Origin: a virus
Length of the DNA: 36,460 nt
Virus record (IMG/VR): IMGVR_UViG_3300021197_001912
Span: 1-36,460 of that record
Direction: 5' to 3' (one strand)
Numbering within the stretch: position 1 is the first letter of the stretch; each line of letters begins with the position of its first letter. This document shows positions 114-10,792 of this stretch, piece after piece. The notes beneath the pieces are model-generated. The model was not told the DNA's origin. It did not search any database and was given only the letters and a program-made list of their open reading frames with translations. A program made the position numbers and the translations under genes.

Positions 114-137
114 ACTATTATTATATCTGAGTTCCTT
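114..137 (-). promoter_or_regulatory. Early-type promoter-like element, copy 1 (reference description)
   Basis: Read on the minus strand the element is AAGGAACT, a four-base spacer, TATAAT, then 5-7 bases and an ATG. In the commonest form the last bases are TAGGT before the ATG. This copy has spacing 6. The TATAAT fits a sigma70-type -10 box. No -35 hexamer at 17 bases is conserved; instead GGAACT lies only four bases upstream, at about -22 to -17 if TATAAT is -12 to -7. The expected transcription start is at or next to the A of the ATG. AAGGA lies about 18 bases from the start codon, too far for a Shine-Dalgarno. The promoter function is inferred. Confidence 0.7.
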
Positions 138-349
138 TAGAGGTAGGTTACTTCGGTGATTGCAAAGTAATTCTCTTCACGTTGATGAGCCCATTCGAGT
201 TGATTCTCAGATAGAACCTTCCAACCTTTAGTATTAAGCAACGGTAGAGCCTCTACAAGCTTCTTCTTCTCATGAGATACTGCAACTACGATCTCGCTGT
301 GATCATTTCCGTAGTGCTTAAGCAGTCTGTAGCATTTACTTTCTTTCAT
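137..349 (-). CDS. Small protein of unknown function, 70 aa
   Basis: A 70-residue soluble protein, MKESKCYRLLKHYGNDHSEI at the N-terminus, with an alternating strand/helix look. A middle segment (KKKLVEALPLLNTKGW, residues about 28-43) resembles the 'index residues then helix' layout seen in other small early proteins here. I do not recognise a family. ATG at 349 follows directly on the element at 350-372. The stop TAA (137-139) abuts the next element, so there is no free intergenic space. Confidence 0.7.
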   Translation of the reverse strand: MKESKCYRLLKHYGNDHSEIVVAVSHEKKKLVEALPLLNTKGWKVLSENQLEWAHQREENYFAITEVTYL

Positions 350-372
350 ACCTAATTATATCAGAGTTCCTT
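350..372 (-). promoter_or_regulatory. Early-type element, copy 2
   Basis: AAGGAACT, spacer CTGA, TATAAT, then TAGGT and the ATG at 349 (spacing 5). The CTCTGA of the element also supplies the last sense codon and stop (L, TGA) of the gene at 361-615. Confidence 0.7.
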
Positions 373-615
373 AATTGATACTACGACGTATTCGTGATGA
401 TTCTTGTAACTATCTGCATATTCAACACAATCAGTAAACTTACCTGAATGATCGATGTATGATGCATCAATAACATGATAACTTTCTTCTTTTACTTTCT
501 CTGTTGTAATGACCTCCACCCTGGTAAGTGAGTGAATTAGCCATGCTTGCCACGATACTACCACTAGTGCAATAACACCGAATAGAGTGGCTTCATTTGT
601 ATATGTCTTAATCAT
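361..615 (-). CDS. Small single-pass membrane protein, 84 aa
   Basis: One membrane segment is visible at residues about 11-31 (LFGVIALVVVSWQAWLIHSL), followed by a roughly 50-residue soluble domain. The family is not recognised. The C-terminus ends IKEL and its last codons are read from the AAGGAACTCTGA of the downstream regulatory element, so the element and the coding end overlap. The start ATG at 615 lacks the early element. It lies 10 bases after the stop of the gene at 626-853, so the two are probably cotranscribed. Confidence 0.65.
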   Translation of the reverse strand: MIKTYTNEATLFGVIALVVVSWQAWLIHSLTRVEVITTEKVKEESYHVIDASYIDHSGKFTDCVEYADSYKNHHEYVVVSIKEL

Positions 616-625
616 AATTCTATTT

Positions 626-853
626 CTACTTAGCTGCTACTAATACCCCGTGGAGATCTGCAATGGTCTCATCCTTCTTGACTTGCTCTTCTTCAAGTTT
701 CTTACTCCATGCATGAAGTTCAGCGATGGTCTGGTCTTTCTTAACAATTAGCCTCTCATGAGACTCTAGCTCTGCCCTAAGGGCAATAACCGTATCAACA
801 AGAGAGCTTACTTCTTCTTCTAGCTGCTTAACATCATTTTCCATCTCTTTCAT
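626..853 (-). CDS. Coiled-coil protein with tandem heptad repeat, 75 aa
   Basis: The whole protein is predicted coiled coil: acidic/basic residues alternate with regularly spaced Leu, Val and Ile. Two near copies of a segment are visible, VKKDQTIAELHAW (about residues 37-49) and VKKDETIADLHGV (about 58-70), 21 residues apart, exactly three heptads. It is probably a small oligomerising protein; the partner is unknown. It starts directly after the element at 854-876. Confidence 0.7.
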   Translation of the reverse strand: MKEMENDVKQLEEEVSSLVDTVIALRAELESHERLIVKKDQTIAELHAWSKKLEEEQVKKDETIADLHGVLVAAK

Positions 854-876
854 ACCTAATTATATCGGAGTTCCTT
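854..876 (-). promoter_or_regulatory. Early-type element, copy 3
   Basis: AAGGAACT, spacer CCGA, TATAAT, spacing 5 to the ATG at 853. All core bases match the reference. Confidence 0.7.
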
Positions 877-878
877 TA

Positions 879-998
879 CTATACTTCAAACTCACCGTAT
901 TCTAGCTTAAGCTCTTTAAGCTCTTTCTCTGCACGTACTAGTCTCTCAGTAAGCTCTAGAGCTTCTGTTAGCATTTCAATTCGTTCTTTATCCGTCAT
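879..998 (-). CDS. Short helical protein, 39 aa
   Basis: A 39-residue frame, MTDKERIEMLTEALELTERL then VRAEKELKELKLEYGEFEV. It is highly charged and almost certainly one long amphipathic helix or coiled coil with a Leu/Ile heptad pattern. No family is recognised. It is supported as a real gene by its own upstream element (999-1020), an ATG at the usual spacing and a stop that ends just before the next element. Confidence 0.65.
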   Translation of the reverse strand: MTDKERIEMLTEALELTERLVRAEKELKELKLEYGEFEV

Positions 999-1020
999 AC
1001 CTAATTATATTAGAGTTCAT
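999..1020 (-). promoter_or_regulatory. Early-type element, copy 4 (variant)
   Basis: TGAACT replaces GGAACT; the spacer is CTAA and TATAAT is intact, spacing 5 to the ATG at 998. The element's CTCTAA provides the last codon and the stop of the gene at 1010-1189. Confidence 0.6.
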
Positions 1021-1189
1021 TATCCATATTAGCATAACATTTTTTACATAACTGCCCTGCTCCTTCAACATAACCTATTCTATAGTCTATATGAGTATCA
1101 TAACTGTAATCGGATTCTTCTCCACAAATAATACAGAGATCTTTACCATTTTCGCTAACACCTAATAATTTGTTTTGTTCTGTTTCCAT
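1010..1189 (-). CDS. Zinc-ribbon-like small protein, 59 aa
   Basis: A four-cysteine pattern is visible: CIICGE (about residues 19-24) and CKKCY (about 49-53), i.e. two CxxC knuckles about 26 residues apart. This is typical of a single treble-clef or zinc-ribbon unit, so zinc binding is likely. The target (nucleic acid or protein) cannot be told. The C-terminus (MDNEL, stop) is read from the adjacent regulatory element. Confidence 0.65.
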   Translation of the reverse strand: METEQNKLLGVSENGKDLCIICGEESDYSYDTHIDYRIGYVEGAGQLCKKCYANMDNEL

Positions 1190-1212
1190 ACCTAATTATA
1201 TCGTAGTTCCTT
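1190..1212 (-). promoter_or_regulatory. Early-type element, copy 5
   Basis: AAGGAACT, spacer ACGA, TATAAT, spacing 5 to the ATG at 1189. It abuts the stop codon of the gene at 1211-1522. Confidence 0.7.
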
Positions 1213-1522
1213 ATGCAATCAGCTCTAGTGTCTTATTGATCTCCTTGAGTCTCATCTCATTCTCGTCCCTCTCAGTTTCAAGTTGAACACGTAAAAGGTT
1301 AGCCATTAAAAGCATCTTACTATTAACATCTGTTAATTTCTCATCTGAATAGCTGAAGTTAAGCCAGGTCTCAGTTGGCTCTGTTGGCCAGAGTTCATAT
1401 CGCCATCCTAGTTCTTTGTATTTACATTCAGTAAGTACTACGCGAGGCGATACAACAACAATCTTTCTAAGAGTATCTCTACCCTTATTTGCAATATAGT
1501 TCTTTCCAACGGTATCGTTCAT
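1211..1522 (-). CDS. Small protein of unknown function, 103 aa
   Basis: The N-terminal half is strand-rich with aromatic residues (KYKELGWRYELWPTEPTETW, about residues 34-53). The C-terminal third is a helix with heptad spacing (residues about 75-103, ending NKTLELIA) that could oligomerise. No known domain is recognised. The start is set by the element at 1523-1546. Confidence 0.7.
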   Translation of the reverse strand: MNDTVGKNYIANKGRDTLRKIVVVSPRVVLTECKYKELGWRYELWPTEPTETWLNFSYSDEKLTDVNSKMLLMANLLRVQLETERDENEMRLKEINKTLELIA

Positions 1523-1546
1523 ACTATTATTATATACGAGTTCCTT
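1523..1546 (-). promoter_or_regulatory. Early-type element, copy 6
   Basis: AAGGAACT, TATAAT, spacing 6 to the ATG at 1522. It is read through as the C-terminal codons of the gene at 1530-1799 (KGTRI, stop TAA inside the TATAAT). Confidence 0.65.
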
Positions 1547-1799
1547 TTACTGTATGCACAATACACTTTATCGGTCTATCGCTTGGGTCTGTATCTCGCC
1601 ATGCACTATTAAACTCTTCTGTTCCAGGCGTCCATCCATTAACCATCTCATTCTTACGCTCTCTATTGACTGGTACTACCTTCTCTACCCATACGTTCTG
1701 TACTTCATCCTTTACTTCATGAATGCAGAGGTTAAGAGCTTTGAGTACATTAGTCTTTGTCTTAGTATAAGCTACAACAACATACTTACTCTCTTTCAT
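1530..1799 (-). CDS. Small protein of unknown function, 89 aa
   Basis: An 89-residue soluble protein with the N-terminus MKESKYVVVAYTKTKTNVLK, sharing MKESK with the gene at 137-349. The middle is rich in charged residues; no catalytic or binding motif is recognised. Its last five residues (KGTRI) and stop are encoded by the regulatory element of the next gene. The upstream element at 1800-1821 overlaps the end of a structured RNA region. Confidence 0.65.
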   Translation of the reverse strand: MKESKYVVVAYTKTKTNVLKALNLCIHEVKDEVQNVWVEKVVPVNRERKNEMVNGWTPGTEEFNSAWRDTDPSDRPIKCIVHTVKGTRI

Positions 1800-1821
1800 A
1801 CCTAATTATATTCTAGTTCCT
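1800..1821 (-). promoter_or_regulatory. Early-type element, copy 7
   Basis: TAGGAACT, spacer AGAA, TATAAT, spacing 5 to the ATG at 1799. The GTAGG before GAACT is also the 3' strand of a long stem in the structured region at 1815-1892. Confidence 0.65.
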
Positions 1822-1892
1822 ACTCCCACCTAGCCTCCCCCTTTCGGGTTGTAGGCGTGAAGATTTTGACGCCTCGTTAATTACTAGGAGCA
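1815..1892 (-). ncRNA. Structured RNA segment 3' of the tRNA-like RNA
   Basis: On the minus strand this segment can fold into a branched structure. CCTGCTCC at its 5' end pairs over eight positions with GGAGTAGG at its 3' end (one G-U). Inside lie GGCGT/ACGCC closing a ten-base loop, and CCC-GAAA-GGG, a GNRA-type tetraloop. No protein frame fits. It may be the 3' part of one longer RNA with the tRNA-like element, a processing or termination structure, or a separate small RNA. The fold was drawn by eye only. Confidence 0.45.
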
Positions 1893-2001
1893 GGCCCGAG
1901 CAGGTATTGAACCTGCATTACCTCCCATACTTAGCCGTCGCCTTGTTGTAGCCTTGCTAGCATTGCTACCGGGTGGTTCTTCCCAGTTAGATGACCGGGC
2001 C
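1893..2001 (-). ncRNA. tRNA-like RNA with an expanded anticodon arm
   Basis: Canonical parts: acceptor strands GGCCCGG and TCGGGCC (six Watson-Crick pairs and one G-U) and a perfect T arm, GCAGG-TTCAATA-CCTGC. There is a short D arm (TCT/AGA) whose loop holds GGG, and a five-base variable region (GTAAT). Where the anticodon arm should be, CACCC pairs with GGGAG (one A-A mismatch), but it closes about 44 bases rather than 7. The total is 109 bases. No CCA is encoded. No anticodon can be assigned. It could be a tRNA with a tiny insertion, a decayed tRNA or a tRNA mimic. Confidence 0.5.
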
Positions 2002-2011
2002 ATATTTTGTT

Positions 2012-2034
2012 TCTATATTATACTATAGTTCCTT
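2012..2034 (-). promoter_or_regulatory. Early-type element, copy 8, in front of the tRNA-like RNA
   Basis: AAGGAACT, spacer ATAG, TATAAT. The RNA's first base (2001) lies 15 bases after TATAAT and no protein start follows. This copy is the main argument that the element is a promoter and not a translation signal. Confidence 0.7.
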
Positions 2035-2157
2035 AAAGTTTAGGGTCTTTCTCTGAGGGCACCCTTACTCCCACGATAGTTCATTATTTAACGTCTTATC
2101 CTATTCGCTTAACCGTGTTTATACTCACTTGACGCACCATCTTACGGGTGAAAACTT
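2035..2157 (-). other. Non-coding spacer with hairpin potential
   Basis: About 120 bases between the stop of the gene at 2158-2355 and the tRNA-like promoter. Only 14-codon frames occur. On the minus strand CACC/GGTG and AGGGT/ACCCT can form small hairpins with loops of 8 and 14 bases, but no T-run follows, so neither is a clear terminator. I cannot assign a function. Confidence 0.4.
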
Positions 2158-2355
2158 TTAATCTGTCTTAATGTTTACGATCTGATTGACATGCCAGCCA
2201 TTAGTAGATCCCATAAACTCAATCTGAAACCAACCGTTAGCATCGAGCCTTTTGATAACACCCTCTTCAGACCACATCTCACCATCACGTCTAGGGCAGA
2301 TATCTAGGAACACATGCTCACCAGATTCAACTAATCTCTCAACTCTCTCTTTCAT
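2158..2355 (-). CDS. Small protein of unknown function, 65 aa
   Basis: The protein reads MKERVERLVESGEHVFLDIC at its start, with later strand-rich, Trp-containing segments (NGWFQIEFMG, NGWHVNQIV). It looks like a small beta-barrel, SH3-like at most; no family is recognised. The start chosen is the ATG at 2355. A longer frame to 2388 would only translate the regulatory element (it would read ELNYNK across it), so it is rejected. Confidence 0.65.
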   Translation of the reverse strand: MKERVERLVESGEHVFLDICPRRDGEMWSEEGVIKRLDANGWFQIEFMGSTNGWHVNQIVNIKTD

Positions 2356-2379
2356 ACTCTTATTATAATTAAGTTCCTT
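2356..2379 (-). promoter_or_regulatory. Early-type element, copy 9
   Basis: AAGGAACT, spacer TAAT, TATAAT, spacing 6 to the ATG at 2355. Its AAGG overlaps the stop of the gene at 2378-2683. Confidence 0.7.
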
Positions 2380-2683
2380 ATCGCTCATTATCTTCTACTA
2401 CTATTGCTTTACCTGCACTACTAGTATTAATATTGTGATCTGAATAATTAAGCTTACCAGCATCACCTTCTATCTTCTCTATCCACTTTCGCCTACCTTC
2501 TGTATTATGTAGATCGTTATCACCGGCCCAGTACACGGTTGCGAGGAAGAGTACAATACATATTATCTTTGAGAAAGACATTATAATTACAGGAACATAC
2601 TTAATAATCCACCAAAGGATAGCTGGCATCGCGCAAATAACGATAACTAAACTCAGCAGCAAACAAGGTATCATATTATCCAT
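2378..2683 (-). CDS. Two-pass membrane protein, 101 aa
   Basis: The first half is two hydrophobic segments (residues about 4-27, rich in Leu/Ile/Val, and about 32-52, IIMSFSKIICIVLFLATVYW) with a short polar turn. A charged C-terminal tail of about 50 residues follows. It probably sits in the host inner membrane. A role in lysis or superinfection exclusion is conceivable but nothing in the sequence shows it. It is expressed from its own element. Confidence 0.65.
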   Translation of the reverse strand: MDNMIPCLLLSLVIVICAMPAILWWIIKYVPVIIMSFSKIICIVLFLATVYWAGDNDLHNTEGRRKWIEKIEGDAGKLNYSDHNINTSSAGKAIVVEDNER

Positions 2684-2706
2684 ACTTAATTATAACGTAG
2701 TTCCTT
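2684..2706 (-). promoter_or_regulatory. Early-type element, copy 10
   Basis: AAGGAACT, spacer ACGT, TATAAT, spacing 5 to the ATG at 2683. Confidence 0.7.
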
Positions 2707-2923
2707 ATTTAGCGTTAATTCTATCTTCCGCTACTCCAACCTCTTTCAACCATTTAATTGCATCCTCTTCACTATCATGCAACTCACCTTCCATCCTACC
2801 TGAAACGAATGTTGCTAGACCTCCTCTAGTCTGACTCCACACTATTCTAATTTTACCTTTTGCAAAAGTAGAACCCCATACATCTTTAAGAGTAGGTAGA
2901 TTATCAGCACCTTTAATCTTCAT
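2705..2923 (-). CDS. Small protein of unknown function, 72 aa
   Basis: A compact alpha/beta protein. Strand-like segments KIRIVWSQT and LATFVSGRMEGEL are followed by a helix starting SEEDAIKWLKEVG (about residues 51-63). The 'strand, display, helix beginning DxEDAIxxL' layout recurs in the genes at 2944-3126 and 11470-11685, which may belong to one small fold. No function is recognised. Confidence 0.7.
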   Translation of the reverse strand: MKIKGADNLPTLKDVWGSTFAKGKIRIVWSQTRGGLATFVSGRMEGELHDSEEDAIKWLKEVGVAEDRINAK

Positions 2924-2945
2924 ACCTTATTATATAAGAGTTCCT
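2924..2945 (-). promoter_or_regulatory. Early-type element, copy 11
   Basis: TAGGAACT, spacer CTTA, TATAAT, spacing 5 to the ATG at 2923. The TAG is the stop codon of the gene at 2944-3126. Confidence 0.65.
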
Positions 2946-3126
2946 AATAATCGAGAGAATGCCCTGCAAGCTGTATGGTAACTGAATAAGTTTCTTTATC
3001 TTGCCAGAGCGTGTCCATTTTATGAACAGCATCATGCTTTTCTTCAAACGGACCATAGTATCTCACACTCTTATCTTTCTTTGAATCAACTTTAGTATGC
3101 ATTACATACCAGTTATTTTCTTCCAT
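2944..3126 (-). CDS. Small protein of unknown function, 60-62 aa
   Basis: Two starts are possible, ATG at 3132 (MIMEENNWYV) or at 3126 (MEENNWYV); I chose 3126 without strong evidence. The protein has strand segments NNWYVMHTKV and VRYYGPFEEK, a helix from about HDAVHKMDTLW, then a strand TYSVTIQLAG. Upstream is an A/T-rich TATATA but no GGAACT block. No family is recognised. Confidence 0.6.
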   Translation of the reverse strand: MEENNWYVMHTKVDSKKDKSVRYYGPFEEKHDAVHKMDTLWQDKETYSVTIQLAGHSLDY

Positions 3127-3182
3127 TATCATACTATTCTGTATATATTGTTAACTATAGGAGAGCCCTTAAGCTCCCGCCC

Positions 3183-3305
3183 TTATTCTAATAGCTTTGC
3201 CAATGCTCCAGCTACTCCAATTGCTGCTGTAATAAGAAACCATGATACTAACGCAACGATTGTCACTTTCTCGAAAAACTCTCTATCTGTTTTATTTTTC
3301 TTCAT
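3183..3305 (-). CDS. Short single-pass membrane protein, 40 aa
   Basis: MKKNKTDREFFEKVTIVALV followed by a hydrophobic stretch (WFLITAAIGVAGALAKLL) gives one membrane helix with a basic N-terminus. It overlaps the end of the gene at 3292-3471 by 14 bases in another frame, which suggests translational coupling. After its stop, GGAGC/GCTCTCC can form an imperfect hairpin without a T-run. No family is recognised. Confidence 0.55.
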   Translation of the reverse strand: MKKNKTDREFFEKVTIVALVSWFLITAAIGVAGALAKLLE

Positions 3306-3471
3306 AATAGTCTTCTTCATCAAAAGGTATAATCTCTTCAAATTGGGTTAAGAGTACTTGCTCACCCTTATCGTTATATTCAAACGTTCTTTCTACTATA
3401 GCACCATCTTCATATTCAAGAGTAAAGATAACTCTACCCTGATCGTCATATTTTTTATGATTTTTACTCAT
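3292..3471 (-). CDS. Small acidic protein, 59 aa
   Basis: The sequence shows strands with a DDQGRVIFTLEYEDG / RTFEYNDKGEQ pattern, two short repeats of 'D/N-x-G then strand', and an acidic tail (FDEEDYYEEK). It is reminiscent of single YD-type repeats, as in the gene at 5931-6185, but too short to assign. Its ATG overlaps the stop of an 11-codon upstream frame. Confidence 0.55.
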   Translation of the reverse strand: MSKNHKKYDDQGRVIFTLEYEDGAIVERTFEYNDKGEQVLLTQFEEIIPFDEEDYYEEK

Positions 3472-3499
3472 TAGTTATGCTAAGGTATTTTTTGTTCAT
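3464..3499 (-). CDS. Possible 11-codon leader peptide
   Basis: The element at 3500-3522 is followed at the normal spacing by an ATG that opens only MNKKYLSITNE. Its stop TAA overlaps the ATG of the next gene by reading AATGAGTAA. It may be a leader peptide coupling translation to the 59-residue gene, or the remains of a start displaced by a small deletion. Confidence 0.35.
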   Translation of the reverse strand: MNKKYLSITNE

Positions 3500-3522
3500 A
3501 CCTAATTATAACAGAGTTCCTT
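3500..3522 (-). promoter_or_regulatory. Early-type element, copy 12
   Basis: AAGGAACT, spacer CTGT, TATAAT, spacing 5 to the ATG at 3499 (the 11-codon frame). The first sizeable gene starts 28 bases further on. Confidence 0.65.
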
Positions 3523-3545
3523 ATGAGTTATTACTACAAGTAGCC

Positions 3546-3758
3546 TTACATTGGTAACCCCACGTGGTCATCATCGCGAACCGCAGCAATACCGTATCGG
3601 TTTGACATTCCCATTAATGTTGGGGCCCATAGCCCAACAAAGATTCCAAGAGATTTGTCTGTGTTGGTGGAATATAGAAAGATAGAGGCAACCACTGATG
3701 CAAGTGATGCAACGAAAAAGAATTGTGACTTAGTTGTATTTGTAATATTAGTATTCAT
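3546..3758 (-). CDS. Two-pass membrane protein, 70 aa
   Basis: Residues about 11-29 (SQFFFVASLASVVASIFLY) and about 36-53 (LGIFVGLWAPTLMGMSNR) form two likely membrane helices joined by a short polar turn, with a polar C-terminus. This arrangement is common in small phage membrane proteins of unknown role. Upstream there is TATAAT (3767-3772) 8 bases from the ATG, but the GGAACT block is missing. Confidence 0.65.
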   Translation of the reverse strand: MNTNITNTTKSQFFFVASLASVVASIFLYSTNTDKSLGIFVGLWAPTLMGMSNRYGIAAVRDDDHVGLPM

Positions 3759-3802
3759 ATGCTCTAATTATAGTAGAACATAATAATTAATCAACTAATT
3801 TG

Positions 3803-4780
3803 TTACCACTTTCGGCAAGACCAATAACGTGCTTTTGTTTTCGGGCCCGGGTTGTCACAATTATGTCTAGCTCTGAAAGATTTACGAGCTTTAGGATTAC
3901 TCTTTCGAATCTTCATAGTCTTTTCACCTTTCCTCTTTGCTGATGTACCACCATGTCCGAAGTTAACCTTCTTAACGTTACCAGTCTTAGGATCCTTTAC
4001 ATAGACCTTAAACTTCTTAACATCACCTCGAGTTGGCTTGTTAAGAGAAACCTTTCGCCCTCTATATTCAGCATCTTCTTCAGGATCCTTCTTCATTCTT
4101 TCAAGTTCACGTTCATTATAATAATCATCCAATACATCACCCTCAGATGGATTATCATCTTTACCTTCTTCATCACTAATAAGTGCAGCTCCTGCTCCTC
4201 CAATTGCTCCAGCAACAGCTCCAGTTGCAGCCCCAAGACCTACTTTACCAGCTTTCAATGCAGCTTTACCAGCTAGCTTTGCACCCAGTTTACCAGTTTT
4301 CAATGCAGCTTTACCGGCTAGTTTACCAGCACCAGCAGCTAGTTTACCAGCACCTCTAGCGATATTACCGAGAGCCTCCTCTTGTACCTCTTCATCCTCT
4401 GGAGATAGTAAGTTTTTTGTATGGCCATATGGTTTACCATCTTCACATCCACATGTCTCGCAATCCTCATCTGTACACTCATGATCTTCTGCTTCAATTA
4501 ACGGCATAATAAGGTCATGAAGTACTTTAGCAAGATCCTTAGAAAGAGTAATTTCTACTGTATCAGTATCCTCTTCATCTTGAACACCTCGACCCCCGTG
4601 AGTAGCTTTTGACCTTCCTGGTGTATTAGGACGTGTGCGTCTATACCTTCCACCCGGTCCATCGGAATCAGAAGAGACTCCACTCGGCTTCCAGTTATTT
4701 TGAGAGTCATATGAATCTCCTTTCGGAGCTTTAGATGTACTATCTTCGATTAGTTTAGTAACGAGATTGTCGAATGTCAT
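3803..4780 (-). CDS. Late virion-associated protein with Gly/Ala/Lys repeats and conserved C-terminal domain, 325 aa
   Basis: In order: a Gly/Ser/Arg-rich N-terminus; a short block TVEITLSKDLAKVLHDLI (74-91); a Cys cluster (C102, C107, C110, C112); tandem repeats built on AGKLAGKAALKTGKLGAK (about 143-185), which may form amphipathic or membrane-active helices; an acidic linker; and a basic domain from about 255 with KKFKVYVKDPKTGNVKKVNF and a final ARYWSCRKW. I recall the C-terminal domain from marine T4-like phages, where it has no assigned function. The late promoter and repeats suggest a structural protein. Block 74-91 recurs in the protein at 22633-23646. Confidence 0.65.
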   Translation of the reverse strand: MTFDNLVTKLIEDSTSKAPKGDSYDSQNNWKPSGVSSDSDGPGGRYRRTRPNTPGRSKATHGGRGVQDEEDTDTVEITLSKDLAKVLHDLIMPLIEAEDHECTDEDCETCGCEDGKPYGHTKNLLSPEDEEVQEEALGNIARGAGKLAAGAGKLAGKAALKTGKLGAKLAGKAALKAGKVGLGAATGAVAGAIGGAGAALISDEEGKDDNPSEGDVLDDYYNERELERMKKDPEEDAEYRGRKVSLNKPTRGDVKKFKVYVKDPKTGNVKKVNFGHGGTSAKRKGEKTMKIRKSNPKARKSFRARHNCDNPGPKTKARYWSCRKW

Positions 4781-4784
4781 ACAT

Positions 4785-5120
4785 TTATTTAATCACTCGA
4801 ACAGATATTGCATTAGAATTAATCCATGAACCTTGCGCGTTATTTCTTGCTGCTATATCTTCTTTAAACTTATCCGACTTAACATAACTTTCAAATAATT
4901 TAGCGTCTTTTTCCTTTAAAAAGCAATAGTTAATCTCTACACCATCACGTGACATAGTGTAGAGACTATTTCCATCCTCAGAAGGCACCCAATCAACTTT
5001 CTTTTCGAGATTTGAATTACACCAGACTCGACATGCACGTACTGTACGATCATCTCCCGATAATGATATCACTGTACCGATGTCCTTTCTATATAATTGA
5101 TTGTGGCTATCATCCGACAT
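4785..5120 (-). CDS. Late protein of unknown function, 111 aa
   Basis: A soluble mixed alpha/beta protein, MSDDSHNQLYRKDIGTVISL at the start, with three cysteines and a Trp-containing middle (VWCNSNLEKKVDWVPSEDG). No family is recognised. It has the best late box in the window (TATAAATA, exact T4 consensus), so it is probably made late, perhaps as a minor virion or assembly protein. Confidence 0.6.
   Translation of the reverse strand: MSDDSHNQLYRKDIGTVISLSGDDRTVRACRVWCNSNLEKKVDWVPSEDGNSLYTMSRDGVEINYCFLKEKDAKLFESYVKSDKFKEDIAARNNAQGSWINSNAISVRVIK
4786..4793 (-). promoter_or_regulatory. T4-type late promoter box ATTAAATA
   Basis: ATTAAATA ends 5 bases before the ATG at 4780. It overlaps the final codons and stop of the gene at 4785-5120. 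Confidence 0.6.
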
Positions 5121-5125
5121 ATGGT

Positions 5126-5133
5126 TATTTATA
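5126..5133 (-). promoter_or_regulatory. T4 late promoter, exact TATAAATA
   Basis: It is an exact match to the T4 late consensus and ends 5 bases before the ATG at 5120. It overlaps the stop codon of the gene at 5129-5308. Confidence 0.75.
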
Positions 5134-5308
5134 CCTCTTCAGCGATACCGAGGCATTCTGCAGCCATAAACAATATAGCCAAACAAAAAATACCTGTCTC
5201 CGGAGAGATGCCTGGTATTAATGCTGGTATACATCCAAGGATACGTACAAACGATTTAACTACTGAGATATAAAAGTGCTTTTTTGAATTTGATTCTTTT
5301 GGTTCCAT
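5129..5308 (-). CDS. Small hydrophobic protein, 59 aa
   Basis: After a polar start (MEPKESNSKKHFYISVVKSF) come two hydrophobic stretches, VRILGCIPALIPG and TGIFCLAILFMAAECLGIA, ending EEV. The layout, with 'KSFVRI..G' then a membrane helix ending near E..GI.EE, resembles a small membrane protein I recall from other marine T4-like phages. It overlaps the gene at 5260-5403 by 49 bases in another frame. Confidence 0.6.
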   Translation of the reverse strand: MEPKESNSKKHFYISVVKSFVRILGCIPALIPGISPETGIFCLAILFMAAECLGIAEEV

Positions 5309-5403
5309 TTTTTTATTGTTAGTTTAAAGTCAATTGTAAGTAGTACCGATACAATTATTGCAATCAATACTGCTGTTAACATGTTAAATACTATTCTTAC
5401 CAT
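5260..5403 (-). CDS. Short single-pass membrane protein, 47 aa
   Basis: MVRIVFNMLTAVLIAIIVSV then LLTIDF makes one N-terminal membrane helix, followed by a basic/polar tail (KWNQKNQIQKSTF). Its start overlaps the stop of the gene at 5403-5585 (TAATG) and its end overlaps the next gene. The three frames therefore form a tightly coupled membrane-protein cassette. Confidence 0.55.
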   Translation of the reverse strand: MVRIVFNMLTAVLIAIIVSVLLTIDFKLTIKKWNQKNQIQKSTFISQ

Positions 5404-5585
5404 TAGAGATAACGTTCATACCACTCTGCTTCTTTATCTTTGCCTAAGGTTGAAATGTTATCTTTAGCTTGACGCTTAAGCATTTCATTATCTACTTGAC
5501 GCTGAAGCCAGGTACGATGCTGCAAACAATTAACATACTTAAGCTCTTGCTTCTTCTTAAATAAATTTGTAATTAATTTAAACAT
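5403..5585 (-). CDS. Small basic helical protein, 60 aa
   Basis: MFKLITNLFKKKQELKYVNC opens with a short amphipathic helix carrying a KKK patch. A long helix rich in Gln, Arg and Lys (RTWLQRQVDNEMLKRQAKDN) follows. It could be a membrane-peripheral or nucleic-acid-contacting protein, but no family is recognised. It shares one base with the upstream gene (start/stop overlap at 5585). Confidence 0.55.
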   Translation of the reverse strand: MFKLITNLFKKKQELKYVNCLQHRTWLQRQVDNEMLKRQAKDNISTLGKDKEAEWYERYL

Positions 5586-5827
5586 TAGTCTTGAATTTGC
5601 TGGTTAAGAAAATTAAGAAACGATTCTACATCGTCCATATCATCTTTAGTTACTTTACTGTTTAACTCACTCATTGTAGTATTAACATCATTCTTAAAGA
5701 AAGCTACGTCTTGCTCTGCCTTCTCAAGCCTAGCGTCGATCACAGCGATCATACCTTCTTCAATTGACACCTCATTATCGATACAGTAATCGATTACTTC
5801 TTGTGGAATTTCTTCTTTCTTTTGCAT
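5585..5827 (-). CDS. Small helical acidic protein, 80 aa
   Basis: Starts MQKKEEIPQEVIDYCIDNEV and continues as two helices with heptad-like Leu/Val/Met spacing (residues about 23-55 and 60-80). It is probably a coiled-coil or helix-hairpin protein of unknown role. It is first in the cassette that runs down to about 5129 and starts right after the element at 5828-5850. Confidence 0.65.
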   Translation of the reverse strand: MQKKEEIPQEVIDYCIDNEVSIEEGMIAVIDARLEKAEQDVAFFKNDVNTTMSELNSKVTKDDMDDVESFLNFLNQQIQD

Positions 5828-5850
5828 ACCTAATTATATCAGAGTTCCTT
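5828..5850 (-). promoter_or_regulatory. Early-type element, copy 13
   Basis: AAGGAACT, spacer CTGA, TATAAT, spacing 5 to the ATG at 5827. Same sequence as copy 2 through the core. Confidence 0.7.
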
Positions 5851-5934
5851 TTAACCACCCCTACCGGAAATATCGATAAACAGTACAATTCCAGCAACAA
5901 TAACAAGCGCAATTAAGAGAAGATCTACACTCAT
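5851..5934 (-). CDS. Tiny membrane peptide, 27 aa
   Basis: MSVDLLLIALVIVAGIVLFI then DISGRGG: a single hydrophobic helix with almost nothing else. Its ATG overlaps the TGA of the upstream gene (ATGA). It is accepted because of the overlap and because its stop abuts element copy 13, but it is short and could be chance. Confidence 0.45.
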   Translation of the reverse strand: MSVDLLLIALVIVAGIVLFIDISGRGG

Positions 5935-6185
5935 TTTACAGCACCTACACTTCCGTGAATATCTTCCAGAGCAAACCATCGAGCTTCCTCTTCTGGCATA
6001 ACCCATTTTTGAGTAATTCCCTCCGAGTTTCTGTAACCAATCTTTCTTCCTTCATTATCAAACTCCCACCATGCTTCAAAACCATTTGAGTTCTTCTGAT
6101 AAACGCAATTACCTCTATCATCATACTCATACCACATCTCAATCTTACGGTAAATTACATTACCATCTTTATCTGTCTTCTCCAT
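5931..6185 (-). CDS. YD/RHS-like repeat small protein, 84 aa
   Basis: Three successive short repeats are visible: TDKDGNVIYRKIEMWYE, YDDRGNCVYQKNSNGFEAWW and FDNEGRKIGYRNSEGITQKW. This 'YDxxGxxxxxxxxxG' rhythm resembles YD/RHS repeats. Known RHS proteins are very large cell-surface or toxin-delivery shells; here only three units occur as a free protein, so function is unknown. AAGG lies 9 bases before the ATG and serves as an ordinary ribosome site inside the operon. Confidence 0.6.
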   Translation of the reverse strand: MEKTDKDGNVIYRKIEMWYEYDDRGNCVYQKNSNGFEAWWEFDNEGRKIGYRNSEGITQKWVMPEEEARWFALEDIHGSVGAVK

Positions 6186-6186
6186 A

Positions 6187-6339
6187 TCACTTACCTTTAA
6201 TTAGTCCTAATGATTTAAGATGTGATAGCATATCCTTATCTACCTTTACATCACCCTTTTTAATTTTCTTTACTCCCTTCTCAATCGGAAGATCCTCAAG
6301 AAAATAATCTCTACCAAATGTACTTTTTTTACGCTTCAT
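6187..6339 (-). CDS. Short basic protein, 50 aa
   Basis: Starts MKRKKSTFGRDYFLEDLPIE, then alternating Lys/Asp-rich helix KGDVKVDKDMLSHLKSLGLI. A longer frame upstream only overlaps the neighbour at 6329-6517 and is not credible. The chosen ATG overlaps the end of that gene by 11 bases. No family is recognised. Confidence 0.55.
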   Translation of the reverse strand: MKRKKSTFGRDYFLEDLPIEKGVKKIKKGDVKVDKDMLSHLKSLGLIKGK

Positions 6340-6517
6340 AAAATTCTTTCTTTTCCCTAGCTGTCTTATTAAATGTATCCATCTTTCGCCTTGTATACCA
6401 AGCTTCAAACTTCTTTGTTGCATCTGGATCCATACAATCATTGAGATAAGCACTCATAAGATTGTATAACTTAGTATCTAAGTCCTTCAATGTTTCTTCA
6501 ACCTCTTGTTTATTCAT
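6329..6517 (-). CDS. Small helical protein, 62 aa
   Basis: MNKQEVEETLKDLDTKLYNL begins a long helix, followed by a more basic segment (WYTRRKMDTFNKTAREKKEF). The ATG at 6517 is chosen because it lies just after the TAA of the upstream gene; an in-frame ATG at 6544 lies inside that gene. It is unrecognised. Confidence 0.6.
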   Translation of the reverse strand: MNKQEVEETLKDLDTKLYNLMSAYLNDCMDPDATKKFEAWYTRRKMDTFNKTAREKKEFYEA

Positions 6518-6521
6518 TATT

Positions 6522-6869
6522 TTACTGAAATTCTTTCCTATCATCCATTTCAGGTCGATTAACCCTATTGTCTATCATTCCCATAATATTCCAAAGTGCA
6601 GCTCCTAGATGATCTTCTGATGCATCACCAGTCCAATCGGCCATTAGATGACGCATACAAGAGTCATAAAGCACAGAGCTCTTCATACCCATCTTCCAAT
6701 TGTTCTCTCCATAGGTCTCAGCACCAGCAAGATATCTATGCATAACAGCAGTCAACGCAGCGTGAGGTACTAGACTCATGCGAGGTTTACCTTCAGCGCT
6801 ATCACGGATTGCACCTGTATCAAACTCTCTAGCTTTACCTGTAGTCTTTAATTTACTTTTGTTGCTCAT
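6522..6869 (-). CDS. dATP/dGTP diphosphohydrolase N-terminal-type protein, 115 aa
   Basis: The sequence has the hallmarks of the phage family described as dATP/dGTP diphosphohydrolase, N-terminal (DUF5664): FDTGAIRDSAEGKPRMSLVP (16-35), a helix leading to GAETYGENNWKMGM, then YDSCMRHLMADWTGD and EDHLGAALWNIMGMID. The acidic EDH and the RH pair fit a MazG-like all-helical metal site. Family members act on purine deoxynucleotides; here only this one domain is present. It lies mid-operon among unknown small genes and overlaps the next gene by 17 bases. Confidence 0.7.
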   Translation of the reverse strand: MSNKSKLKTTGKAREFDTGAIRDSAEGKPRMSLVPHAALTAVMHRYLAGAETYGENNWKMGMKSSVLYDSCMRHLMADWTGDASEDHLGAALWNIMGMIDNRVNRPEMDDRKEFQ

Positions 6870-7017
6870 AGTAGTCTTCTAAAACTCTATTATTAAGATG
6901 TGAAAGATACCAGAAAAGAGTCTCCTCAAAGGTCTCATGCTGTGTATCTAGCTCTCTATCATTCCATAAATCAGTAACCTCTGCAGTTACCTTATCAATT
7001 GTACCTTGATCAATCAT
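6853..7017 (-). CDS. Small helical protein, 54 aa
   Basis: MIDQGTIDKVTAEVTDLWND, then helical residues to a C-terminal EQQK. It overlaps upstream (ATGA at 7014-7017) and downstream genes, as expected for coupled translation in a compact operon. No family is recognised. Confidence 0.6.
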   Translation of the reverse strand: MIDQGTIDKVTAEVTDLWNDRELDTQHETFEETLFWYLSHLNNRVLEDYYEQQK

Positions 7018-7340
7018 CTGAAAGCTGGCTTGTATTCACATTTGAACTTAGCGGTAGGTACAGTAAAGACTGAACCACCTCGAGCACCTGCCTCACCAAC
7101 AGAGTATGCTTCGTGTACAATCTTAATCTCAATACCATCATCAACTTCACTCCAAGAGATGACATCATCTTCTAGCAAGTCAACTGCCGTTGGACACTCA
7201 TAGTCATCTCCATATACATCCCATTGTAGTTCTTCTCTCATATCTTTCTTTCTAAATATTTTATCAAAGTTATCTGAGTAAGCGCTATAGTTAGTCGTAC
7301 GTTGCTTTGAACCTTTACCGCCATGCCATTGCATACTCAT
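7014..7340 (-). CDS. Phage small protein with HGGKGSKQR N-terminus, 106-108 aa
   Basis: The N-terminus MQWHGGKGSKQRTTNYSAYS with a following DNFDKIFRKK recalls a short conserved phage N-terminal motif (HGGKGS...F..WD.IF.KK). An acidic middle (VDLLEDDVISWSEVDDGIEI) and a Gly-rich turn (GEAGARGGSV) follow. The function is unknown. Two starts are possible, 7340 or 7334. A TATAAT abuts the first ATG and lies 6 bases from the second, without the GGAACT block. Confidence 0.6.
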   Translation of the reverse strand: MSMQWHGGKGSKQRTTNYSAYSDNFDKIFRKKDMREELQWDVYGDDYECPTAVDLLEDDVISWSEVDDGIEIKIVHEAYSVGEAGARGGSVFTVPTAKFKCEYKPAFR

Positions 7341-7352
7341 ATTATATCTTCT

Positions 7353-7652
7353 TTATCGCCAATATCCACGGTTAAATCTAAGCATCTCTTCGTAGTTTAG
7401 ACCTCTTCTACCTCCCGCATAAACAATTTTACCCGGATCTCCACCAGCCAATTCACAAAATAAATCCCAAGCAATTGGATCAGTCTCAGAGGCAGGACCT
7501 TGGCGCATTGTAATAGCTGCATATTGCTCTACTTTTTCATTATATTCCTCAAGTAAATCCTCTTCCCCATCTCTAATTAAGTCAGCTAGCTTATGAATTT
7601 TACTTCTTAACTCAATCTTATCAACGTATATGTCTTTTTTAACTGGTCTCAT
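7353..7652 (-). CDS. Protein of unknown function, 99 aa
   Basis: Helical N-terminal half (residues about 10-50, rich in Leu, Glu and Lys), then a Gly-rich loop GGDPGKIVYAGGRRGLNY and an aromatic tail. The ATG at 7652 has GGAG 8 bases upstream, one of the clear Shine-Dalgarno sites in the window. This shows that non-first genes in operons use ordinary ribosome sites. No family is recognised. Confidence 0.65.
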   Translation of the reverse strand: MRPVKKDIYVDKIELRSKIHKLADLIRDGEEDLLEEYNEKVEQYAAITMRQGPASETDPIAWDLFCELAGGDPGKIVYAGGRRGLNYEEMLRFNRGYWR

Positions 7653-7654
7653 AA

Positions 7655-8005
7655 TTAATCTCCAAATGCATCTATCTCACTCCATTGCGCGTTGCCAAAC
7701 ACCAAAATATCTCTTTTAAACTTGCTCAAGTATGGAGCATATCCCCATACATCACCTGATTGCCATTGAGCATATATCCATTGCTGAAATGCTCTACTCT
7801 CAAGTACTTTAATGGGTTTCTTTATACCTTTTGTAATAAAGTAATACAATTCACGATCGTTCATTTGTAATACTTCTGGCTCAAAACCATCAATCGTTAA
7901 AGTATATACACCATCCGTTTCATCGAGCTGCCAACTCCGACTATATGAAGGGGCGCAATCTCCAACACGTACTTTAGTCTCAAAGTCAAATGATTTAATT
8001 ACCAT
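7655..8005 (-). CDS. Protein of unknown function, 116 aa
   Basis: A strand-rich N-terminal half (RSWQLDETDGVYTLTIDGFE) and an aromatic C-terminal half with Gln/Trp residues (WIYAQWQSGDVWGYAPYLSK). It looks like a compact soluble domain and is unrecognised. It overlaps the upstream gene by 7 bases (GGATGGTAA). Confidence 0.6.
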   Translation of the reverse strand: MVIKSFDFETKVRVGDCAPSYSRSWQLDETDGVYTLTIDGFEPEVLQMNDRELYYFITKGIKKPIKVLESRAFQQWIYAQWQSGDVWGYAPYLSKFKRDILVFGNAQWSEIDAFGD

Positions 8006-8268
8006 CCGAAGTAGTGAGCTTGAGGTGAGTTATAAGTCTCGTTCTTATCTTGAGCGGCTCTCATGAGAGCGTCACGAGTAATCTCTTCTTCAATAATCAT
8101 TTCTCTCTTAAAATCTTTCATCTCTTGAATAGACATCGCATGACGCTCAGCATACTCAAGATCGACAGTATCAAGAAATATCTTACGTTCACATTTAGGA
8201 GCCTTAGCTAGAGTATCTCCAGGTTTAAGGTATCCCATTTCAATTAAATCTTCTCTTGTTGGTCTCAT
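7999..8268 (-). CDS. Protein of unknown function, 89 aa
   Basis: MRPTREDLIEMGYLKPGDTL then a cysteine (C26) and a long helical region with many Glu/Lys (about 34-75). The true start is the ATG at 8268, 7 bases after TATAAT of element copy 14. A frame extending to 8355 would translate the element and the neighbouring lipoprotein region, so it is rejected. This is the first gene of the operon running to about 5851. Confidence 0.65.
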   Translation of the reverse strand: MRPTREDLIEMGYLKPGDTLAKAPKCERKIFLDTVDLEYAERHAMSIQEMKDFKREMIIEEEITRDALMRAAQDKNETYNSPQAHYFGW

Positions 8269-8269
8269 C

Positions 8270-8476
8270 TTACTTATTATATCGGAGTTCCTTTTTAAGA
8301 TTGCTCCAGGTTTTATTGTCTGACTGATTATGAATCTCCTTAATGTGGTCATCACCCCAAGCAGTTCCTTTCAAATAGTACCCATTTTTGTATTCAACTT
8401 TTATTTCTTCTTTTGTATAAGACTTACTACACGAAGCAATAAGCATGACGAAAGGTGTTAACATTACGTATTTCAT
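8270..8476 (-). CDS. Small predicted lipoprotein, 68 aa
   Basis: The N-terminus MKYVMLTPFVMLIASCSK has a short hydrophobic core and a lipobox (I-A-S-C, C16 as the lipidated residue), so export and anchoring to a membrane is likely. The mature part is polar (KEEIKVEYKNGYYLKGTAWG) and unrecognised. Phage lipoproteins are often involved in superinfection exclusion or lysis (as with Rz1), but nothing specific supports either here. It overlaps the neighbouring stop by one base (TAATG). Confidence 0.65.
   Translation of the reverse strand: MKYVMLTPFVMLIASCSKSYTKEEIKVEYKNGYYLKGTAWGDDHIKEIHNQSDNKTWSNLKKELRYNK
8276..8293 (-). promoter_or_regulatory. Early-type element, copy 14
   Basis: AAGGAACT, spacer CCGA, TATAAT, spacing 7 to the ATG at 8268. 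The whole element is inside the coding end of the lipoprotein gene at 8270-8476, being read there as KELRYNK. Confidence 0.65.
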
Positions 8477-8730
8477 TATGCGTCTTTCCAGTTATTAATA
8501 ATGTCTGATGGTGAGTTAGCCTCTAAGTTATTAGCTAAGCTCTGAATCAATGGTCTCATCACATCAAGCTCTTCTACAAGTCGTTGAGCATATCGAGCAT
8601 CAGTCTGAGAAAACTCTTCTACATCATACTCCATCAATGCTTCTTGCAAGTCTTGCATAAAGAAGTAAGCATCCTTCATGTAATGACCTTGAGCCATTCT
8701 GCGACCTTGTTTATCCTTTCTTGCTGCCAT
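8476..8730 (-). CDS. Helical protein of unknown function, 84 aa
   Basis: MAARKDKQGRRMAQGHYMKD gives a basic N-terminus, then helices (EEFSQTDARYAQRLVEELDV) with regular Leu/Ile spacing. No family is recognised. Its element at 8731-8753 separates it from the EF-hand gene's terminator at 8761-8785. Confidence 0.65.
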   Translation of the reverse strand: MAARKDKQGRRMAQGHYMKDAYFFMQDLQEALMEYDVEEFSQTDARYAQRLVEELDVMRPLIQSLANNLEANSPSDIINNWKDA

Positions 8731-8753
8731 ACCTAATTATATCAGAGTTCCTT
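8731..8753 (-). promoter_or_regulatory. Early-type element, copy 15
   Basis: AAGGAACT, spacer CTGA, TATAAT, spacing 5 to the ATG at 8730. It lies immediately downstream of an intrinsic terminator, so transcription here is likely to restart. Confidence 0.75.
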
Positions 8754-8760
8754 TAGAGAT

Positions 8761-8785
8761 AAAAAGAGGGTCCGCAGACCCTCTT
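8761..8785 (-). terminator. Intrinsic terminator after the EF-hand gene
   Basis: On the minus strand AAGAGGGTC and GACCCTCTT form a perfect nine-pair stem with a four-base loop, followed by a run of T. It ends transcription from the gene at 8808-9200 just before the next promoter element. Confidence 0.85.
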
Positions 8786-8807
8786 AATATGTTATGACTC
8801 AAATAGA

Positions 8808-9200
8808 TTAGCCTTTCTTAGGTGCAGGCTTCTTACCGCCCTTTTTAGGACCCTTGCCTTTACCTTTACCTTTTTCTCCCTTCGGCTTACGAGCTTTACG
8901 ACGTTCTGCCATAGCTTTCTTAGCTGCAGCTAGCTCCTTACCTTCAACTTTGCCATTACCATCCTTATCGAATCGCTTGACCCAAGCCGCTTTGGCTGTC
9001 GCTTTCTCTGCATCACAAAGTTTACCATCTTTATTCTTATCGAACTTGGCCATATGAGGAGGAAGCTTCTTCTTACCACCAGCCTTTTCTGCTGCTGGCT
9101 TTTTCTTACCTTTCTTCTCATCATGATGATCTGCACTTACATTAAGAGTAAGTGCAGCGATCCCTGCAATAATGCTCAATAGAGCTCTTTTTGTTTTCAT
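8808..9200 (-). CDS. Secreted EF-hand calcium-binding protein, 130 aa
   Basis: A signal peptide (MKTKRALLSIIAGIAALTLN, cleavage probably after VSA) is followed by a Lys/Gly-rich segment. Then come two EF-hand loops: D54-N56-D58-K60-C62-E65 (weak at position 9) and D78-D80-N82-K84-E86-E89. The tail is a low-complexity Lys/Gly/Pro run. It probably binds Ca2+ outside the cytoplasm. The style is that of bacterial exported EF-hand proteins and the gene looks acquired from a host. It is bracketed by a late-type box upstream and its own terminator. Confidence 0.75.
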   Translation of the reverse strand: MKTKRALLSIIAGIAALTLNVSADHHDEKKGKKKPAAEKAGGKKKLPPHMAKFDKNKDGKLCDAEKATAKAAWVKRFDKDGNGKVEGKELAAAKKAMAERRKARKPKGEKGKGKGKGPKKGGKKPAPKKG

Positions 9201-9225
9201 ATAATTAATTGTATGATAGTAATGT

Positions 9226-9233
9226 TATTTATC
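9226..9233 (-). promoter_or_regulatory. Late-type box GATAAATA
   Basis: It overlaps the stop of the thioredoxin-like gene and ends 25 bases before the EF-hand ATG at 9200, further than the usual 5-7. Confidence 0.45.
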
Positions 9234-9456
9234 AACTATTCTCTTTGATGATAGAGATAATATCATCTGTACCTTTAACTATACTTACACCTCTACTATC
9301 TTCAAGTACAAGAGTAGGTACAGATTTAATATCATGTTCTTTGATAAAATCGGGACTCTCATCCACATCTACTATTTCAACTTTTAGACCTTTTACATCT
9401 AAAATATTCTTAAGCATAGAGCATGGACCACACCACTCTGCTGTTACTAGTTTCAT
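9232..9456 (-). CDS. Thioredoxin/glutaredoxin-like protein, 74 aa
   Basis: A minimal thioredoxin fold: MKLVTAEWCGPCSMLKNILD holds the active site C9-G-P-C12, the later SVPTLV holds the cis-Pro (P47), and a C-terminal helix ends KENS. CGPC is thioredoxin-like, while the length is closer to glutaredoxin or NrdH-type proteins. It is probably a thiol-disulfide reductant, for example for ribonucleotide reductase. The start at 9456 is chosen by spacing (7) from a late-type box; an ATG at 9462 is possible. Confidence 0.8.
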   Translation of the reverse strand: MKLVTAEWCGPCSMLKNILDVKGLKVEIVDVDESPDFIKEHDIKSVPTLVLEDSRGVSIVKGTDDIISIIKENS

Positions 9457-9463
9457 TTTCATA

Positions 9464-9471
9464 AATTTATG
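9464..9471 (-). promoter_or_regulatory. Late-type box CATAAATT
   Basis: It lies 7 bases before the ATG at 9456 and overlaps the stop codon of the upstream gene (GCATAA). It is a one-base variant of the late box. Confidence 0.4.
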
Positions 9472-9718
9472 CGCAAACATTCTTACTAAAGTTTTTAACA
9501 CAACTACGCCCTCCTTTAGGAATAAAGTAGCCCTTATTCTCTCGCCAGGTTTCAGCAGACATAATCTCAATCTGAGCACCAACCTTACCGTCATACACCA
9601 TACGACCTTTAGGAGGCTCTACGGGGTTCTCATGAGCACATCTCACACAATTATCAAAGCCAGCTTCAACACGAGCAGGTCTTACAAGACTTCCACAAGC
9701 ACAATATACTATCTTCAT
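9467..9718 (-). CDS. Cysteine-rich, possibly zinc-binding protein, 83 aa
   Basis: MKIVYCACGSLVRPARVEAG begins with CxC (C6, C8), followed by CVRCAH (C24, C27). This gives four ligands in a zinc-ribbon arrangement. The C-terminal half is basic with two more Cys. A longer upstream frame crosses the element and the neighbouring gene, so the ATG at 9718 is used. The function is unknown; a zinc knuckle binding nucleic acid or protein is plausible. Confidence 0.6.
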   Translation of the reverse strand: MKIVYCACGSLVRPARVEAGFDNCVRCAHENPVEPPKGRMVYDGKVGAQIEIMSAETWRENKGYFIPKGGRSCVKNFSKNVCA

Positions 9719-9742
9719 ATCATTATTATACCAGAGTTCCTT
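9719..9742 (-). promoter_or_regulatory. Early-type element, copy 16
   Basis: AAGGAACT, spacer CTGG, TATAAT, spacing 6 to the ATG at 9718. It abuts the stop of the gene at 9741-10574. Confidence 0.7.
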
Positions 9743-10574
9743 ATGCAACAAGTAGCTTACTTGCTCTTTGTGAGATTGTATTCGAATTGAATGAGCGCAA
9801 GAACTTCTCTGTAGATTGCTTGCCTGTATGAGTCTCATACTCTGTTACTGCATTAAGAGCATCCCATTTACTCTCACCTACATTACCTCGTCCATTAGTA
9901 AACAATTCAACTAGCTGCTCTCGTTTATTAACTCGTTTTGTAGAATCATTTTCTGTAATAGGGATAAGCTGCTCAGTTAACTCAGTCATATTATCCCTGG
10001 TAAAGGATTCAGCTCGTAACTTATTAGCTACCTTACCAAACCTAATAGTAGTATTGACATTACTTCTAATATTGTCAATCATTGCTTCAATCTTTCCATC
10101 AAAAGTTAATGCATGTCTAACTCCAGAATTCCTAGCAATTGCCCCTTCGGCATCAATAAGATGCATTGCATTATCACAAGCAACTCGTAAGGTAGAAGCA
10201 ATTGACTTATTAGACCCCATACCTGTATTATCAATAACTGTATAGAAATGAGGTTGTATAATATCACCCCCTAAATCTATATCGGATAGCAAGCGAGACC
10301 GAAGCACCATCTTGCGACCAGCTCTCGATTCAGCCCAGCCGGTGTGCTGAATATTACCAATTTCAGTTGATGCTTTATCGATAATATCAAACATCTCATC
10401 CATTTGAATAGGCCGATAAGAATCTTTTACTACCGAGAGATGCTCATGAGTATCTGTTCGCTGCAAAGAGAATGCACCAGGAATTGACCTCCCATTTGCA
10501 TCTTGAATAGCTACTTTCGTTGTCTCGAATTGCTCAACATCATTGAGCCCGTGTATTTCTCTAAAAAATCCCAT
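9741..10574 (-). CDS. DUF932-like phage/plasmid protein, 277 aa
   Basis: The N-terminal part HEHLSVVKDSYRPIQMDEMF (44-63) and the later segments AGRKMVLRSRL, VIDNTGMGSNKSIASTLRVA and CDNAMHLID match the layout I know for DUF932 / TIGR03299 phage-and-plasmid proteins. In that family a 'V..D.Y.PIQ' strand is followed by a region with a conserved 'VC.N' (here ACDN). The biochemical role of the family is unknown. The start at 10574 is 29 bases downstream of element copy 17; a second TATAAT lies 3 bases before it. Confidence 0.7.
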   Translation of the reverse strand: MGFFREIHGLNDVEQFETTKVAIQDANGRSIPGAFSLQRTDTHEHLSVVKDSYRPIQMDEMFDIIDKASTEIGNIQHTGWAESRAGRKMVLRSRLLSDIDLGGDIIQPHFYTVIDNTGMGSNKSIASTLRVACDNAMHLIDAEGAIARNSGVRHALTFDGKIEAMIDNIRSNVNTTIRFGKVANKLRAESFTRDNMTELTEQLIPITENDSTKRVNKREQLVELFTNGRGNVGESKWDALNAVTEYETHTGKQSTEKFLRSFNSNTISQRASKLLVA

Positions 10575-10791: not shown

Positions 10792-10792
10792 A

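Follow-up and report, generated by a model that had tools for sequence, protein, structure and literature searches.

A tRNA-like RNA that bears a two-hairpin arm instead of an anticodon arm, encoded by a group of marine phages and best read as a new family of non-decoding tRNA mimics

The window, by which is meant the whole stretch of DNA analysed here (36,460 bases), is an IMG/VR virus record whose terminase and tail sheath match those of myovirus families. Its terminase shows at most 39% identity to the best matches, which are T4-like, among 50,697 phage records, and in an INPHARED DNA search (50,697 phage records) neither the window nor the element described below had a relative. The locus of interest lies on the minus strand and contains, read along that strand, a gene for a 65-residue protein (2158..2355), a conserved non-coding block (2038..2133), a phage-specific promoter-like motif (2017..2034), a 5' leader (2002..2016), a tRNA-like element of 109 bases (1893..2001) and a downstream structured domain (1822..1892).

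The tRNA-like element was recognised by pattern and by fold, and its orthologues with covariance model R1. It possesses a 7 bp acceptor stem (GGCCCGG...TCGGGCC; 5' strand 1995-2001, 3' strand 1893-1899) with G.U as the last pair, a short D arm (TCT/AGA, 1978-1991) that is preceded by U8 and carries A14, A15 and G18G19, a 56-base replacement arm at the site of the anticodon arm (1921-1976), a variable region ending in U48, and a perfectly paired T arm (GCAGG-TTCAATA-CCTGC, 1900-1916). The D/T elbow, on which membership among the tRNAs was judged, is complete (U8, A14, A15/U48, G18G19, U54U55C56 and A58). The tRNA upper half (acceptor, D and T arms) that the preliminary description had placed at 1893-2001 was thus found entire, on the minus strand and with all of its elbow bases. 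A combined pattern of acceptor, U8, A14, GG, T arm and over-long middle matched the window once, at this element, and gave no match in 150 dinucleotide-shuffled windows. The window copy does not encode CCA, has U at position 73 and has C-G as pair 3-70; given the missing CCA and the unusual U73, charging of the RNA is uncertain.

Likeness to tRNA (RF00005) extends over the acceptor, D and T arms, the variable region and the elbow bases; the difference is that the element lacks an anticodon loop and carries a two-hairpin arm of 48-72 bases instead of an anticodon arm. ARAGORN, run on the window in its standard, introns-allowed, mitochondrial and tmRNA modes, was silent at the element, and Rfam returned nothing for the window copy, RF00005 being unmatched even at E 10. 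The search with tRNA and tmRNA models that had been proposed as a check therefore failed for the window copy itself, but a diverged orthologue on contig L202 scored 31.9 bits against RF00005, just above the gathering score of 29. Apart from chance matches, a search for tRNAs with a matching D arm turned up just ordinary genes for tRNA-Trp and tRNA-Glu. The folding z-scores of the whole element were -1.4 in the window, -4.5 in L004, -3.4 in L202 and -3.1 in L203; by this measure the window copy alone is unremarkable and the orthologues are far from chance.

Eleven contigs, namely the window and ten other viral contigs, carry the element in four sequence types, and the carriers are a group of marine phages. 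Scanning IMG/VR for exact patterns yielded seven contigs, of which five have near-identical copies and two (L004, L006) a shorter, different middle. With the upstream protein as an anchor, three further diverged copies were recovered, having covariance-model E-values of 6e-12 (L202) and 2e-11 (L203/L204). Among six distinct sequences, pairing in the acceptor, D and T arms is maintained in 100% of cells; pair 7-66 occurs as G.U, A-U or G-C, and one D pair as C-G or U.G. Two-sided changes are absent from these three stems in the same six sequences, so that their support consists of conservation and perfect pairing, not of covariation. The closeness of this conservation is seen in the comparison of the window with contig L063. 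In the upstream gene 37 of 65 third codon positions differ, which places synonymous sites near saturation; differences number 1 in the 102 positions of the upstream block, 2 in the 71 of the downstream block, and none in the 37 of the promoter and leader or in the acceptor, D and T arms. So low a divergence of the block would be accounted for either by purifying selection on it or by repeated exchange confined to it.

These observations bear on the proposal that the locus holds a decaying tRNA gene or the remnant of an attachment site. The anticodon and CCA are both missing, as such an origin would predict, but the strong conservation with compensatory changes contradicts it, no tyrosine integrase was found in eight records, and no copy of the element turned up when 84,980 reference genomes of bacteria and archaea were scanned with an exact pattern. 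The "degenerate tRNA" of the preliminary description was dropped on the same ground, its acceptor, D and T arms being near-invariant over eleven contigs beside a near-saturated neighbouring gene (window against L063). Conservation excludes decay, and we regard a remnant of this kind as extremely improbable; neither chance nor decay is the origin of the element.

The middle of the molecule was originally described as CACCC/GGGAG closing a loop of about 44 bases. The over-long middle is real, but an A.A mismatch lies inside the helix and the supposed loop is made up of two hairpins standing on a closing helix. The latter (CC.CCC/GGG.GG) falls within 1921..1976; hairpin 1 occupies 1948-1969 and hairpin 2 (GGC-GACG-GCU) 1929-1946, all on the minus strand. 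Across the four sequence types the replacement arm measures 56, 48, 71 or 72 bases and its sequence is very different, and the minimum-energy fold consists of a closing helix plus two hairpins in all four, an architecture reached by just 1.3-3% of the shuffles of each arm. Comparison of the window and L004 types shows two pairs altered on both sides and four mismatches turned into pairs. The two-sided changes lend modest support, there being four distinct rows, with 37 of 500 shuffles equalling them. Hairpin motifs are shared by the window with L004 and by L202 with L203, which reduces the recurrence of the arm architecture to about two independent cases. When the two-hairpin arm was searched for in other contexts, a single chance match appeared, inside a coding region (L184). 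The GGCGACG of hairpin 2 resembles a 16S rRNA motif, a likeness that was judged compatible with chance.

Could the replacement arm be an anticodon arm with a small intron, removed by splicing to leave a decoding tRNA? As this would call for, nothing is missing from the outer parts of the tRNA, and the over-long loop is closed by a stem of five positions. None of the eight 7-base loops possible in the window copy has U33, however, and no anticodon is obtained by removing an insert, which agrees with the earlier statement that no anticodon fits and disposes of the tRNA with a small insertion offered beside it. Three of the four loop framings of the L004 type likewise fail the U33 test, and ARAGORN gave no match with introns allowed. 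The insert has 37 bases and a self-splicing intron needs more. Group I, group II and archaeal tRNA introns were considered and rejected, as the exons do not rejoin to a standard anticodon loop. An intron-bearing tRNA is accordingly very unlikely and, so far as sequence alone can tell, the window copy is not a decoding tRNA, because no 7-base loop with U33 can form.

The element is only part of what is conserved. While 1893-2001 correctly delimits the tRNA-like portion, the conserved non-coding unit is larger (about 2133-1822) and takes in the upstream block, the promoter (in the window), the element and a downstream three-way-junction domain. The upstream block (2038..2133) always accompanies the element; it is 95-100% identical across all window-type contigs and is present in L202-L204 too, directly upstream of the element. 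A coding role for the block was rejected, the longest frame having 14 codons and being broken by indels in contig L052. Folded alone, the block has a z-score of +0.8, so that its stability is not unusual, and it shows no two-sided changes; any structure of the block is for these reasons putative. The downstream domain (1822..1892) has a CCUAG/CUAGG closing helix and the hairpins GGCGU/ACGCC and CCC/GGG. Four of its 19 tested pairs show compensatory two-sided changes, a value reached by none of 500 shuffles, all four stemming from one diverged sequence, L052. As it is 97% identical in L063 despite a different next gene and promoter, the domain belongs with the element. The compensatory changes that had been looked for in relatives are therefore present in the downstream domain (4 of 19 pairs) and the replacement arm (two pairs), but not in the acceptor, D and T stems.

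The promoter-like motif (AAGGAACT-ATAG-TATAAT, 2017..2034) stands 15 bases before the element, the intervening leader (2002..2016) being identical or nearly so in window-type contigs. In the window, all 19 occurrences of AAGGAACT-N4-TATAAT are on the minus strand (sites 135 to 13532); nearly every one comes right before a short gene, and one precedes the tRNA-like element. The motif usually lies 5-9 bases ahead of an ATG, a spacing which suggests leaderless or nearly leaderless mRNAs. The promoter-like element of its own that had been credited to the RNA thus holds for the window lineage but not generally, since neither L202 nor L203 has a copy. In L202 the upstream block runs directly into the element and in L203 a short spacer separates them; in L052 the two are separated by an inserted promoter and an ORF of 29 codons.

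A 9-base direct repeat, GUGGGAGUA (minus strand GTGGGAGTA), is situated in both flanking blocks, at 1821-1829 and 2066-2074, and both copies are complementary to the trailer UGCUCC of the tRNA-like element. When the full L202 and L203 units are folded to minimum energy, the upstream block pairs with the trailer through its copy of the repeat; covariation backs the downstream fold. A switch between alternative pairings with the two repeat copies is possible.

From this arrangement comes the main rival to a free-standing tRNA mimic, in which the tRNA-like part is a processing or stability element within one non-coding RNA of about 300 bases that includes both flanking blocks. RNase P and the 3' tRNA-processing enzymes would cut there, making the ends of a functional upstream or downstream RNA, and the repeat copies would compete for UGCUCC, so that the fold could switch before and after cutting. 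The constant company of the upstream block in all window-type contigs, its adjacency in L202-L204, the lack of a promoter motif between block and element in L202 and L203, the pairing of block with trailer in both of those folds, the repeat itself, and a downstream domain that folds on its own with covariation all speak for this proposal. Against it stand the promoter directly before the tRNA-like part in the window lineage and the promoter and ORF that intervene in L052; moreover, punctuation alone needs no replacement arm of conserved architecture. We consider it unlikely on balance, though to be taken seriously.

The occurrence of two three-way junctions in one transcript also recalls pRNA, and an RNA for phage DNA packaging or replication was considered. 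The promoter is, however, of the kind used by many small minus-strand genes, the terminase gene lies about 21 kb from the element, and terminases at 50-55% identity are found in records (mostly fragments) that lack it; the chance of such a role appears slim indeed. Two other structured phage non-coding RNAs, GOLLD and ROOL, are comparable in kind but are far larger, and neither has an Rfam match in the window. GOLLD is frequently found near tRNAs.

The 65-residue protein gene (2158..2355) is the invariable neighbour of the RNA, being directly upstream of the element in 11 of 11 contigs. The protein model has a helix and four strands and a pLDDT of 73, which is modest confidence. In structural comparison the top rows were Hfq and Sm proteins (Z 6.0-6.6), with Hfq first at 6.6; these proteins have an N-terminal helix and a five-stranded bent barrel, as against the four strands of the model. 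Foldseek gave no match to the model reaching E 0.001, and sequence comparison with Hfq gave none, for which reasons the predicted helix plus small beta-barrel is tentatively assigned to the Sm/Hfq-like fold as a lead only.

Such a neighbour raises the possibility of a Y-RNA-like scaffold, in which the tRNA-like part would dock an RNA-processing enzyme and another arm a small ring-forming phage protein, here the Sm-like neighbour, as a phage counterpart of the Ro60/YrlA/PNPase machine. The YrlA RNAs, 90-150 bases in length, mimic tRNA (PMC8394870). The resemblance to YrlA (RF02553) lies in a size of about 110 bases, in D-, T- and acceptor-like arms and in an added arm for a protein partner. The adjacency of gene and RNA in every contig and the Hfq/Sm rows of the structural comparison also speak for the scaffold. 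The added arm of the window element is, in contrast, at the site of the anticodon arm; the window has no Rfam match to YrlA, the best score being 15.6 bits in the L203 orthologue against a gathering score of 69; and no Ro60/TROVE gene was found in eight records, which are possibly partial. The limited confidence of the protein model and its lack of Foldseek and Hfq sequence matches also tell against this arrangement, as does a related record (G012) which has the protein gene and no RNA. It is held to be improbable.

Several of these phages encode a second RNA of reduced tRNA form. A match of 63-68 bases to the whole tmRNA model is present in five of eight window-type records and in the L203 record (six of the eleven contigs), for example, all on the plus strand, at L064:17252-17318, L062:17364-17431, L052:14485-14548, L194:1501-1565 and L203:2611-2673. 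These minimal tmRNAs consist of a tRNA-like domain with G3.U70 in which the tag region and pseudoknots are replaced by a hairpin of 3-5 pairs. They lie about 2 kb upstream of the element in window-type sister contigs (five of seven) and about 0.7 kb downstream in L203, and were not found in the remaining contigs, the window included, all of the contigs being partial. More than 100 IMG/VR contigs (L066-L183) match the tag-less tmRNA-like pattern (about 60-80 bases, many with CCA), and the form appears to be widespread in phages. In a passage of PMC11915505 that cites Mao et al. 2009, the tag-less (CDS-less) tmRNA of phage DS6A reportedly inhibits the endogenous host tmRNA in E. coli.

With the DS6A type the window element has in common that it is phage-encoded, reduced to a tRNA-like domain and devoid of a decoding part, and in sister contigs the two RNAs are near one another. 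It differs in its ordinary D arm, in the absence of G3.U70, in having U73 and not A73, and in its two-hairpin arm and two conserved flanking blocks. None of the features by which a tmRNA is known (a match to RF00023, the D-loop UUCGAC, G3.U70 and A73) is present, and 109 bases leave no room for a tag reading frame and pseudoknots. The earlier suggestion of a minimal tmRNA-like molecule does not survive this comparison, and a separate minimal tmRNA exists in five of seven sister contigs.

Two further tRNA-like genes were noted in passing. One, at 770-880 on the plus strand of both L203 and L204 and about 1 kb upstream of the element, scores 38.7 bits against RF00005, is missed by ARAGORN and has about 45 extra bases in its anticodon loop. 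The other, on the minus strand of an unrelated high-GC phage contig (L011), is 120 bases in length from base 6576 of the reverse complement; it encodes its CCA, carries a loop of 47 bases on an anticodon-type stem of 5 bp (CGCGU/ACGCG), adjoins a tRNA-Val gene, and is an independent analogue of the window element.

The fold of the tRNA-like element is well supported, and among the four options offered in the preliminary description the tRNA mimic is the one that the evidence backs. The explanation we prefer, though still tentatively and at somewhat less than an even chance, is that the element encodes an RNA which mimics tRNA without decoding and serves a tRNA-recognising host factor as decoy or scaffold; the RNA is best read as a new family. 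It probably works through imitation of tRNA in infected cells. It would be transcribed from one of the phage's own promoters, of the kind that precedes its small genes, and the transcript would comprise a tRNA upper half whose L-shaped elbow is intact, the two-hairpin arm and, on its 3' side, a further structured domain. Host RNase P and 3' tRNA-processing enzymes may trim it. The most economical mechanism we can infer is that the RNA would serve as decoy or scaffold for a host factor reading the elbow and the acceptor/T-arm, candidates being RNase P, RNase Z, a tRNA-modifying enzyme, EF-Tu or PNPase. The replacement arm would either block entry to translation or hold a partner, for which the adjacent, putatively Sm-like phage protein is a candidate. 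The tRNA mimic and the tag-less tmRNA that several of these phages carry would then share a strategy: the co-resident RNA shows, by analogy, the same kind of mimicry in these phages, aimed, if precedent holds, at trans-translation.

The upstream and downstream blocks are conserved as much as the tRNA-like part or more, so that the latter may serve a larger RNA and not act alone. Rather unlikely would be a new phage ribonucleoprotein system in which the Sm-like protein works with an RNA of about 300 bases and several domains, namely a tRNA-like core, an exchangeable arm of two hairpins, and near-invariant flanks on either side that are capable of alternative pairing; such a system would take over a host tRNA-processing or RNA-degrading enzyme, alongside a tag-less tmRNA directed against ribosome rescue. 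Because the window-type copies escape both Rfam and the standard tRNA finders, non-decoding tRNA mimics are probably under-counted in phages. Where a tRNA shape is kept without its anticodon, the capabilities of the elbow and acceptor arms stand by themselves, and the element provides a testable case of phage RNA mimicry against the host tRNA or ribosome-rescue machinery.
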